The notes beneath the pieces are model-generated. The model searched no databases. It was given only the letters and a program-made list of their open reading frames with translations, and was not told where the DNA came from. The position numbers and the translations under genes are program-made. Positions 31,520 through 52,824 of a stretch of 64,000 nucleotides of DNA are shown here, piece after piece (the first letter of the stretch is position 1; each line of letters starts with the position of its first letter). Origin of the DNA: Bacteroidota bacterium (GTDB taxonomy: Bacteria > Bacteroidota > Bacteroidia > B-17B0 > Aurantibacillaceae); the NCBI GenBank assembly GCA_030684395.1, contig JAUXTT010000017.1:1-64000 (forward strand), written 5' to 3'.

Positions 31520-31628
31520 AACCACAAAGAACACAAAGTATGCACAAAGAACACAAAGTTTTTAAAATAGTTCTTAGCGTTCTTCGTGCCATCCCGATAG
31601 CTATTGGGACTTTGTGAACTTTGTGGTT
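31520..31628. repeat. CTTTGTG-family inverted repeat, copy E, interrupted by CCCGATAGCTATTGGG
   Basis: The left arm (31520-31558) starts AACCACAAAGAACACAAAG; the right arm (31573-31628) ends CTTTGTGAACTTTGTGGTT, the inverted match. The right arm contains an extra block with the palindrome CCCGATAGCTATTGGG (31593-31608). The intact left arm has only AT at that point. Confidence 0.75.
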
Positions 31629-33407: not shown

Positions 33408-33645
33408 TAGATAAAACAACAAAGGCTGCCCACGCATTTTTTAAGCAAAAACTTTACAAAAAGCCCGAAATTTAGCACCGCCCTGTAAGTAGCGTAGACC
33501 CTATAAGTGTTTAAGTATTGAAAAGAACTTGCAAGATTGTGTAATACTAAGCCACAACCGGATAGTATGAAATAGGTGGTTATAGTTAAATAGGTAGTAG
33601 AAATGAAAAAAATCAAAAACCAAGCCCATACTTCAATCTAAAACC

Positions 33646-34161
33646 TCACATTATCTCCTTCTTCTCCCTATTATACCTCATCATTTCTCCATAATCCATT
33701 TTATTTGCAAAGGCATGCAGACACTGCGCAATTCGTTTAGCCTTAGTTTCAGGAGTTTTAGCACTTTCAATCCATTTCGAATAATAGTGCTGATGAGATT
33801 TAGGGAGGCTTTCAAAATATTTTTTTGCTTCTTTATCGTCTTTCAAACAAATCAGCATGTCTTCTGATAAAGTAAGCTCTGCAGTATCTTCTTCCAGTTT
33901 TAAAACTACCACATCATCTTTTTGTTTTTTGATGGCTTTCCGCATCTCACCATTGATGGGCAAAATAAAATCTCCTTCTCCCATTGGGATCAAAGCAACT
34001 TTGCTTAAAGTGTAATTATCCAGCTTACCTTTTACACGGAACGATTTTTTCATTCCCGGTTTTAGTTTACGAATGATCTCTTCCGGAACTTCAACATAAG
34101 TCCAGCCGGTTTTTTCGCACTTCTTGTCAAACTTTAAAAGTGTCGCTTTAAATTGGATCAT
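33646..34161 (-). CDS. DUF1905 / YdeI (OmdA) family protein
   Basis: A 171-residue cytoplasmic protein. The N-terminal DUF1905 beta-barrel (about 1-80: FKATLLKFDKKCEKTGWTYVEVPEEI, then LPINGEMRKAIKKQ) is fused to a bacteriocin-protection YdeI/OmdA domain (about 110-171: YFESLPKSHQHYYSKWIESAKTPETKAKRI). The fusion is common in Bacteroidota. Biochemical function is unknown; the 'OmpD-associated' name comes from an indirect observation in enterobacteria. Its start region abuts the interrupted repeat at 34168. Confidence 0.85.
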   Translation of the reverse strand: MIQFKATLLKFDKKCEKTGWTYVEVPEEIIRKLKPGMKKSFRVKGKLDNYTLSKVALIPMGEGDFILPINGEMRKAIKKQKDDVVVLKLEEDTAELTLSEDMLICLKDDKEAKKYFESLPKSHQHYYSKWIESAKTPETKAKRIAQCLHAFANKMDYGEMMRYNREKKEIM

Positions 34162-34167
34162 GATGTT

Positions 34168-34310
34168 TCCCGCAGTCCCGATAGCTATCGGGATCGCGGA
34201 TTTTTTTATACAAATACTAAAGTATAAAATTCAGGTAATGTAAGCAAATTGTCTCTGCGAAAATCTGTGCGATCCCCGCCCGACTGAACGTCGTTCGGAC
34301 GGGTGCGGGA
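34168..34310. repeat. CCCGCAGAT-family inverted repeat, copy F, with two different palindromes
   Basis: The left arm (34168-34205) and right arm (34252-34310) are inverted versions of one repeat, related to copy G at 35563-35662. The left arm is split by TCCCGATAGCTATCGGGA (34176-34193). The right arm is split at the equivalent site by a different palindrome-like block of about 30 bp (34272-34301; CCCGCCCGACTGAACGTCG with TTCGGACGGG). Confidence 0.75.
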
Positions 34311-34392
34311 GCTTTTTAGTTAGTAACCCTTTGAAAAGTCGGAGGAATTAATTCGTCTCTTTTTCTTATTTTTAAACAAACAATATTTTTGT

Positions 34393-35553
34393 ATGCCCAG
34401 GTTTCAAGGACTCGTAACATCTAAACTTCCTGCCGTAGGAACCACTATATTTTCTGTAATGAGTAAGCTCGCAATGGAGAACAATGCAATCAATCTTTCT
34501 CAGGGTTTTCCTGATTTTAATTGCTCTGAAAAGTTGGTTGAGTTGGTGAATCAAAACATGAAGAAGGGCAATAACCAGTACGCTCCAATGCCGGGTGTAC
34601 CCGCTTTACGTGAACAGATCGCTGAAATGATCCAAGACTTATATGGGACACAGTATAATCCTGATACGGAAATAACAGTTACCGCAGGTGCTACTCAGGC
34701 TATTTATACTGCCATTGCAGCTGTGGTGAGAGAAGGTGATGAGGTTATAGTGTTTGAACCTGCTTACGATTGTTATACTCCTGCTATTATTGTAGCCGGC
34801 GGAAAACCTGTTTACGTGCAATTAAGCCAGCCCGATTTTTCTATTGATTGGCTTGCCGTTAAAAAAGTAATGAGCCATCGTACAAAACTTATTATCATTA
34901 ATACGCCACACAACCCAAGTGGCACCATACTTTCTGATAAAGACATGCAGGAATTGGATAAACTTACAAAGGATACCGATATCATGATATTGAGCGATGA
35001 GGTATATGAACACATGGTGTTTGATAATGGAATTCATCAGAGTGTAGCACGTTTTCCAAATTTAGCTGACCGTAGTTTTTTGATTTCTTCATTCGGTAAA
35101 ACAGTTCACACTACCGGTTGGAAAATGGCTTATGTAGCTGCGCCTGAAAATTTAATGACCGAATTTAGAAAAGTTCATCAGTATTTGGTGTTCTCTTGTA
35201 ACACTCCAATTCAGTATGCTTTGGCAGAGTATATGAAAGATAAAAACAATTATCTGGAACTAAAAAGCTTTTATCAGCAAAAAAGAGATCAGTTTATTAA
35301 ACTAATCAGTTCAAGTAAATTTTCTTTCGAACAAAGCACCGGAACTTATTTTCAATTATTGAATTACTCAGCTATTTCCGATGAGAAGGATACGGATTTT
35401 GCAATACGTTTAACCAAAGAGTTTAAGATAGCATCTATTCCTCTATCGGTTTTTTATCATGAAAATGTAGATAATAGATTATTGCGTTTTTGTTTCGCAA
35501 AGAAGGAAGAAACCCTGGAGAAAGCTGCGGAGATACTGTGTAAAATAAGCTAA
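34393..35553 (+). CDS. Class I/II PLP aminotransferase, methionine aminotransferase (YbdL-like)
   Basis: A 386-residue fold-type I aminotransferase. Family marks are SKLPAVGTTIFSVMSKLAMENNAINLSQGFPDF at the N-terminus, the NTPHNPSGT substrate loop, ILSDEVYEHM with the PLP-ring Asp and Tyr, and the PLP-lysine in SSFGKTVHTTGWK (about residue 236). The N-terminal block and length match YbdL/kynurenine aminotransferase-like enzymes that use methionine, glutamine or aromatic amino acids with 2-oxo acids. The precise substrate cannot be read. A TAnnTTTG-like box lies 1 bp before the ATG, too close to serve this start. Confidence 0.9.
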   Translation: MPRFQGLVTSKLPAVGTTIFSVMSKLAMENNAINLSQGFPDFNCSEKLVELVNQNMKKGNNQYAPMPGVPALREQIAEMIQDLYGTQYNPDTEITVTAGATQAIYTAIAAVVREGDEVIVFEPAYDCYTPAIIVAGGKPVYVQLSQPDFSIDWLAVKKVMSHRTKLIIINTPHNPSGTILSDKDMQELDKLTKDTDIMILSDEVYEHMVFDNGIHQSVARFPNLADRSFLISSFGKTVHTTGWKMAYVAAPENLMTEFRKVHQYLVFSCNTPIQYALAEYMKDKNNYLELKSFYQQKRDQFIKLISSSKFSFEQSTGTYFQLLNYSAISDEKDTDFAIRLTKEFKIASIPLSVFYHENVDNRLLRFCFAKKEETLEKAAEILCKIS

Positions 35554-35562
35554 TACAATTTT

Positions 35563-35662
35563 GCCCGCAGATATCGCGGATTGGCGCAGATTTTTTACTG
35601 TAATATAATAAGTTAAATACAACCGCAAATCCCTCAGCGAAAATCTGCGACATCTGCGGGAC
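35563..35662. repeat. CCCGCAGAT-family inverted repeat, copy G (uninterrupted)
   Basis: The left arm (35563-35596, CCCGCAGATATCGCGGAT...) and right arm (35632-35662, ...CATCTGCGGGAC) form an imperfect hairpin between convergent genes. Neither arm has an insertion at the place where both arms of copy F do, so it serves as the reference state. Confidence 0.7.
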
Positions 35663-35665
35663 ACC

Positions 35666-37480
35666 TTAAGCCTCGGCCATATAGATCTTCTTCTTATCTA
35701 TACTTGCTTTAATGTCTTCCAACTGCCCTTTAGGAATGGAGTTGATAAGTTTACGGGTATAATCCGTTTGAGGGTTGTTACAAATCTCATCTGCATCACC
35801 CATTTCTTCTACTTTTCCTTTATTCATAACCACCATACGGTCGCTCATGAATTTAACTACAGAAAGATCGTGAGAAATAAATATGTAAGTAAACTTAAAT
35901 TCTTTTTTTAATTCATTCAATAAATTTAATACTTGAGCCTGAACAGAAACGTCCAATGCAGAAACGGACTCATCGCAAATAATAAACTTAGGTTGTAAAG
36001 CCAAGGCACGGGCAATACAAATACGCTGACGTTGTCCTCCCGAAAACTCATGCGGATAACGATAAAATTGTTGTTCCGTCATATTCACACGTTTCAGTAA
36101 TTCCATTACTCTTGCTTTACGTTCTGCATTATTTGCGAGAATCCCATGTACTATCATAGGTTCCATAATAGCGTCGCCAATAGTAATACGCGGGTTCAAA
36201 GAAGAATAAGGGTCCTGAAAAATGATCTGAATATCCTTGCGTAAATTACGCATATCTGTACTATTCAGGTTGGTAATATCTTGCCCTCTGAATTTAATGA
36301 TTCCCGATGTAGGTTCAATCAAACGTAATATTGTCCGTCCCAGTGTTGTTTTTCCGCAACCTGATTCGCCCACCAATCCAAGTGTTTCGCCTTCATATAC
36401 ATCAAAAGAAATATCATCCACTGCCTTTACAAAATCTTTTGCTCTGCCAAACATACTTTTATTAATCGGGAAGTATGTTTTAATGTTTGATAGTTCAAGA
36501 ATTTTAGTTCGTTCGTAAAGTTCCTTGTGCTGAGCATCACGTTCTTCTTTGGTAACTACCGCACTTTTTAAAACTTCCTGAATAGATTGCGTTTTTTCAA
36601 TGATCTCACCCGCTTCATTTAATTCCATGAAATTGTTTACAGTAGGCAAAAAGTGAAGGCGTTTGTTTAATGGAGGGCGGCAAGCCAGCAAACCTTTGGT
36701 ATAAGGATGTTGAGGATTACTAAAAATGTCATATACTGATCCTTGCTCAACAATTTTTCCTTTATACATTACAACCACCTTATCGGCAAGTTCAGCAATA
36801 ACTCCAAGGTCGTGTGTAATGAACATAATTCCCATGTCGTTATCACGCTGCAGTTCCAACATCAAATCCAATATTGTTTTTTGAACGGTAACATCCAACG
36901 CTGTTGTTGGCTCATCAGCAATAAGTATACTCGGATTGCAACTCATCGCCATAGCGATCATCACCCGTTGTTTTTGTCCACCCGAAATTTGATGCGGGTA
37001 AGTATCTAAAATATCTTCCGGTCGTGGTAATTGTACTTTTTTAAATAACTCTAATGTTTTTGCTCTTGCTTCTTTTTTCGTAACTTTTTGATGAAGCATG
37101 ATTGCCTCCATTACCTGATCACCGCAGGTATAAACCGGGTTCAAGGAAGTCATGGGTTCCTGAAAAATCATGGCGATCTCATTTCCACGGTATTCACGCA
37201 TTTCTTTTGAAGAAGCTTTTACCAGATCAACTGCACCATTATTTCTTGAGTGATAAATAATCTCGCCGGAAGAGATTCTTCCCGGAGGATTTGGGATCAG
37301 TTTCATAACCGAAAGTGAAGTAACCGATTTTCCGGATCCTGATTCACCAACTATACCAATGGTTTCACCACGGTTAAGAGTAAACGATATATTGTTAACG
37401 GCTTTTACCGTTTCACTTTCTGTTTTAAATTCTGTAACCAGATTTTTAACCTCTAATAAAACTTCTTTAGCTTGACCCAT
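35666..37480 (-). CDS. Oligopeptide-type ABC transporter ATPase, two fused nucleotide-binding domains
   Basis: A 604-residue fusion of DppD- and DppF-like ATPases (GsiA layout). The first half has Walker A GESGSGKS, signature SGGQKQRV and [11 protein letters not shown]; the second has [16 protein letters not shown] and [10 protein letters not shown]. Each half ends in the oligopeptide_trans C-terminal extension with a [15 protein letters not shown]-type motif. The complex should import peptides or small solutes with DppB/DppC permeases and a binding protein, none of which is in this window. The ATG at 37480 is chosen over an upstream TTG. Confidence 0.92.
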
Positions 37481-52648: not shown

Positions 52649-52710
52649 AGTCCTATAGCTCAGCTGGTTAGAGCACCTGACTCCCCCGATAGCTATCGGG
52701 GCAGGTGGTT
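52649..52710 (+). pseudogene. Broken tRNA (CAT) copy, anticodon loop replaced by a palindrome
   Basis: From GTCCTATAGCTC to GCACCTGACTC (52650-52683) it is identical to the intact tRNA 101 bp downstream. ATAAT of the anticodon loop is then replaced by CCCCGATAGCTATCGGGG (52684-52701). CAGGTGGT (52702-52709) continues the anticodon stem and variable loop, after which similarity ends, so there is no T-arm or 3' acceptor strand. It cannot give a normal tRNA. Confidence 0.88.
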
Positions 52711-52749: not shown

Positions 52750-52823
52750 GGTCCTATAGCTCAGCTGGTTAGAGCACCTGACTCATAATCAGGTGGTCCC
52801 TGGTTCGAGCCCAGGTGGGACCA
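52750..52823 (+). tRNA. tRNA with anticodon CAT (elongator Met, or Ile2 read through lysidine)
   Basis: A 74-nt cloverleaf: acceptor GGTCCTA with TGGGACC, discriminator A, D-arm GCTC..GAGC, anticodon arm CCTGA-CTCATAA-TCAGG and T-arm CCTGGTTCGAGCCCAGG. CCA is not encoded. It lacks the initiator hallmarks (no 1-72 mismatch and no three G-C pairs below the anticodon loop). Sequence alone does not decide between elongator Met and Ile2. A terminator hairpin follows directly. Confidence 0.93.
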
Positions 52824-52824
52824 C

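Follow-up and report, generated by a model that had tools for sequence, protein, structure and literature searches.

The window analyzed here, a stretch of 64,000 nucleotides on contig 31 of a genome (4.87 Mb in 44 contigs) assigned to Bacteroidota by composition, genes, and distribution, contains at positions 34168 to 34310 a hairpin of the CCCGCAG family, each arm of which is interrupted by a different palindrome. On direct reading, the left (outer) arm (34168-34200, minus strand) is CCGCGA-TCCCGATAGCTATCGGGA-CTGCGGGAAA in reverse complement, and the 18-bp palindrome TCCCGATAGCTATCGGGA within it (34176-34193), which we call P, consists of exact CCCGATAGCTATCGGG flanked outside by T and A, and stands for the three bases NAT of empty arms. 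The right arm (34254-34310, plus strand), also read directly, is TCTGTGCGATC-CCCGCCCGACTGAACGTCGTTCGGACGGG-TGCGGGAG, and is interrupted at 34275-34303 (plus strand) by an imperfect 29-bp palindrome, CCCGCCCGACTGAACGTCGTTCGGACGGG, which we call P2. A related hairpin at 35563-35661 has empty arms, with GCGA-TAT-CTGCGGG on the left (reverse complement) and GCGA-CAT-CTGCGGG on the right; the original prediction for this locus had only AT or AC between GCGA and CTGCGGG, and this is corrected here to three bases. The strand from 34160 to 34318 folds better than 200 of 200 shuffles (z -3.9), and the hairpin at 35563 better than all of its shuffles (z -4.7). The window hairpin would be a host repeat, one arm of which was hit by P and the other arm of which holds P2, a different GC-rich palindrome, at the adjacent base. 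Approximately 6 bp separate the end of the left arm and the start codon of a minus-strand gene, and the P-bearing arms at C2:89606, C11:129623, and C33:106982 likewise lie, as this one does, immediately 5′ of an apparent start codon. A second exact P is present in the window at 52684-52701, with C-G as its outer pair (CCCCGATAGCTATCGGGG), as is a P with one mismatch at 31592-31609 (core CCCGATAGCTATTGGG at 31593-31608). A search of Rfam returned nothing at gathering score in positions 33500-36500, where the one match (E 0.94) is at chance level.

Our search of the whole genome for P (YCCCGATAGCTATCGGGR, searched as CCCGATAGCTATCGGG) identified 67 exact copies, vs 0 for the reversed control, and the P2 pattern was found in 4 copies, again vs 0. 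Both of the palindromes that the original prediction placed in the two arms are therefore present and far from chance. The P unit is an 18-bp self-complementary sequence with T-A or C-G as its outer pair, and is near-invariant, while the arms that surround it are only approximately 50% identical. Among relatives, a congener has 72 copies and a genome from another genus of the family has 79, with a count of 0 in many other members. Across the phylum, P is present in 30 of 395 sampled genomes, all listed under the same class, with at most 40 copies in distant members. A scan of all GTDB contigs, made with a loose pattern whose matches were mostly chance matches in GC-rich genomes, found the composite of arm and P in only four Bacteroidota matches from two genomes (ADurb.Bin145 and Chryseosolibacter). 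No exact text match to the P sequence was found in open-licence papers. A P-like palindrome with two changes that preserve symmetry, CCCGAAAGCTTTCGGG, occurs at C11:98958 and is possibly a member of a sister family.

In the genome containing the window, we read 51 exact copies of P in context, using approximately 0.87 Mb of stretches centred on known copies, i.e., a sample biased towards P. Comparison of filled and empty sites demonstrated that P takes the place of three bases. In the CCCGCAG arms the filled form is GCGN[P]CTGCGG and the empty form is GCGNNATCTGCGG, so that 18 bp stand for 3 bp, and the same net gain of 15 bp was seen in protein genes, tRNA D-loops, and CCCGCAG-type arms when these were compared with relatives, neighbouring intact copies, and empty arms. 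The target-site duplication that marks miniature inverted-repeat transposable elements and class II transposons was not found; the empty sites have 3 bp that are replaced. Since a gain of 18 bp would keep the reading frame equally well, and since non-coding sites have no frame to keep, the reading frame alone is an insufficient explanation for a footprint that is the same at coding and non-coding sites. Examination of flanks from four groups of genomes also showed that the base adjoining P, read outward, is almost never A (8 of 248 flanks have A at +1); beyond this flank rule, P tolerates almost any surrounding sequence. Direct repeats around P are in modest excess (12 vs 2.3 expected at score 12), part of which comes from tRNA copies and tandem duplications. 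At C26:371372 and C26:98291, P lies at the margin of local direct duplications.

Thirteen of the 51 copies lie within long open frames that continue for 20 codons or more on each side of P, and approximately three quarters lie outside of long reading frames. The genes containing P, which we named by sequence recognition and not by family search, include leuS, htpG, ribD, an ftsK-like gene, a recD-like helicase, a nucleotide-sugar epimerase, and aminotransferases. Two of the frames of P are open and encode PDSYR and PIAIG, and the third contains a stop. Alignment with P-free orthologs from two congeners and one family member (G001, G002, and G006) demonstrated exactly five extra residues in leuS, htpG, and the degT-type, recD-like, epimerase, class-V aminotransferase, and flavoprotein genes; an ORF6N gene of congener G001 has five extra codons with P as well. 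The leuS gene (L286, G000:C16:253981-254295) also contains an in-frame DUF559 (Vsr-like endonuclease) insert adjoining a CTCTCC/GGAGAG palindrome. DUF559 occurs in open frames of more than 1000 aa in G006, G012, G007, G017, G038, and G363, and the G006 match shares its open frame with the G006 leuS match.

In addition, five copies of P in the same genome lie in partial tRNA copies located 30-65 bp upstream of an intact gene for the same tRNA (C8:404, C11:98552, C20:73132, C31:467862, and window 52650-52708). In four of these, P replaces exactly 3 bases of the D-loop (AAT, AGT, AGC, and ATT). The fifth, which contains the second exact P of the window, is the 5′ part of a tRNA-Met (52650-52708, plus strand) with P at the anticodon loop; the intact tRNA-Met gene (52750-52824) begins a short way downstream. 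No such upstream partial copy was seen at tRNAs without a nearby P in the stretches of this genome that we examined. In congener G001 (L199, G001:C1:289000-291000), intact tRNA genes are clustered with degenerate ones, and three of the degenerate genes bear P.

The position of P within the CCCGCAG arms of this genome is constant. The module C[TA]G[CT]G is present at offset 0 in 12 of 59 P copies of the genome (variants included), where approximately 0.2 are expected per offset, and at offsets 1-8 in none of the 59; in genome G017, 4 of 25 P copies have the module at offset 0. This shows that the GCGN-NAT-CTGCGG module boundary is a strong hotspot for P, with the same nucleotide occupied about a dozen times, and supports for P the site preference that had been proposed; palindromes spread randomly along the arms, which would have spoken against it, were looked for and not seen for P. 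P2 is found at a neighbouring point, with all four copies at GCGNNATC^TGCGGG, within approximately 1 nt of the P entry point, and with none found outside arms in the genome. P replaces NAT in GCGN-NAT-CTGCGGG and the P2 insertion falls one nucleotide further out, between C and TGCGGG, so that the points of entry, described originally as equivalent, are adjacent and not identical. By eye, the flanks of the four P2 copies are as divergent as ordinary arms. With only four copies, P2 could have been copied along with its arm or could have entered separately. At C16:258997, a further GC palindrome occurs one module further in.

The hotspot facts favour repeated entry of P at a preferred sequence, as judged from present arms, over the view that arm and P were copied together, or that short-tract gene conversion carried P between arms, in which case the shared position would reflect one founder insertion. 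Consistent with copying or conversion, every P-bearing arm of the genome has P at one and the same nucleotide, as do those of G017, several copies of other dispersed repeats in G001 and G017 also have P at a set position, and the pair at C26:98291 and 98393 is a tandem duplication. However, P-bearing arms form no sequence clade, and their mean flank identity is 0.48 among themselves, vs 0.50 to empty arms and 0.51 between empty arms; arms with P resemble one another no more than arms without it do, which argues that entry was repeated and supports, for P, the independent entry originally proposed, with P2 left undecided. A single founder also sits poorly with the majority of P copies lying outside arms, and with Flavobacterium-like genomes, where by eye P adjoins GTGGC, approximately 2 nt from the G017 position. 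We consider joint copying or conversion somewhat unlikely as the whole explanation, with gene conversion among arms staying a live rival to repeated entry.

A second view, put forward in the original prediction, is that the palindromes enter where DNA forms a cruciform or hairpin loop or where a replication fork stalls, and our data make this improbable. Most P-bearing arms are solitary, with no opposite arm within 220 bp, and most empty arms differ in this; since most P-bearing arms have no partner, a host hairpin is not needed for entry. Many insertions are in ordinary coding DNA, and when 124 sites in nine genomes were scored for strong inverted repeats centred on P, none of the 51 sites in this genome had one. 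Among the 73 P copies in other genomes, 4 have a strong inverted repeat centred on them, in one case a terminator-like stem-loop, and the five copies in tRNA D- or anticodon loops also point towards structure, although selection tolerating insertions in loops accounts for the loop cases equally well; a minor structural bias is possible. It is very improbable, in our judgement, that P is instead a functional site under selection, such as a protein-binding site or a terminator, and not a mobile unit. The perfect 16-18 bp symmetry, the near-invariance, and the large share of copies outside long reading frames are what such a site would lead us to expect, whereas its clean insertion into core genes such as leuS and htpG and the lack of P in many close relatives are not. 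The T-run beside a stem that marks intrinsic terminators was also not in excess, with TTTT no commoner near P than in distal flanks (5 flanks vs 6 distal).

Comparison of these present-day sequences suggests that P is probably a miniature, non-coding, non-autonomous mobile palindrome of Bacteroidota. Several points weigh against this. No transposition event was observed and no mover enzyme identified, and neither Y1 transposases nor DUF559 endonucleases track P copy number. Since the congeners are only approximately 75% identical in DNA, the exact triplet replaced is one that we infer, and retained coding insertions, which must be multiples of 3, alone tell only +15 from +18. The tRNA-Met copy at 52684 loses 5 bases and not 3, and the insertion in ribD (L033, C22:1132) exceeds five codons: P and a second GC-rich palindrome that adjoins it, GCCCGCCCGGGCG, together add 14. 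As candidate movers, RAYT (PF01797) and DUF559 (PF04480) were rejected because they occur in genomes with and without P. If P is mobile, a trans-acting activity would cut with a 3-base stagger or gap and put the palindrome in place of those bases; this could be an endonuclease or transposase acting on a hairpin, or alternatively end-joining or polymerase repair that captures a self-complementary oligonucleotide. Reading frames would survive because a gain of 15 bp is in frame and P can be read through in two of its three frames. Only tentatively do we go further and propose that P may represent an undescribed class of mobile DNA whose units are among the smallest known, in which a perfect palindrome of 18 bp is moved by replacement (18 in, 3 out, no duplication) by a host or element enzyme and repeatedly edits essential proteins in frame.

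If this is true, P would be one of the smallest mobile elements yet described. Tiny palindromes occur widely in bacteria. For P, coding genes, tRNA D-loops, and repeats share one footprint (15 bp net, 3 bp lost, and the flank rule), and genomes differ sharply in the number of copies, so that the reaction can be studied by comparing strains and in the laboratory. The presence of P in core genes such as leuS and htpG would also point to a steady source of 5-residue protein insertions.

Several known systems resemble P in part. Repetitive extragenic palindromic (REP) sequences and REPINs with RAYT are short, high-copy palindromes, some intragenic (PMC3116915, PMC3733652), as P is; P was rejected as a REP/RAYT element, since it has no GTAG or CGTC tag (each within 8 nt of only 1-2 of the 51 copies), no unpaired tail, and no neighbouring Y1/RAYT gene that we could find. 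P was missing from the 14 Y1_Tnp loci examined, a subset of the Y1 matches, with flanks of up to approximately 1.5 kb, and Y1 genes also occur in P-free genomes. The GC clusters of yeast mitochondria are mobile, GC-rich hairpins that reside in AT-rich DNA and fuse with one another (PMC4478555), and P would share these features, although it replaces bases and does not duplicate them. P most likely works like the small dispersed repeats (SDR) of cyanobacteria and, in genes, like Rickettsia palindromic elements (RPE), by an analogy that does not imply membership in either. The SDR of Nostoc and its relatives, reportedly treated by Elhai et al. in 2008, are hairpin-forming units of approximately 20-27 bp, nested in other repeats and tandem arrays and lineage-restricted, and we know of no enzyme for them. 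SDR elements lie in tandem or near-tandem repeats, and in G017 (L216, L224, L225, and L228) P too is found within tandem or near-tandem TTCCAAAC/TTCCACCC repeats. P is likewise dispersed, hairpin-forming, and nested in other small repeats, at 18 bp slightly shorter; unlike SDR, it belongs to another phylum, has another sequence, is a perfect palindrome, is found within many protein genes, and takes the place of 3 bp. The analogy is functional only. Published SDR are dispersed units of approximately 20 bp (PMC2884548; also mentioned in PMC3116915). RPE are selfish, peptide-encoding palindromes of approximately 150 bp that lie in frame in unrelated protein genes (PMC10969869); P shares with them the in-frame palindromic insertion into unrelated genes, but does so with 18 bp and five added codons, where RPE carry a conserved peptide open reading frame.
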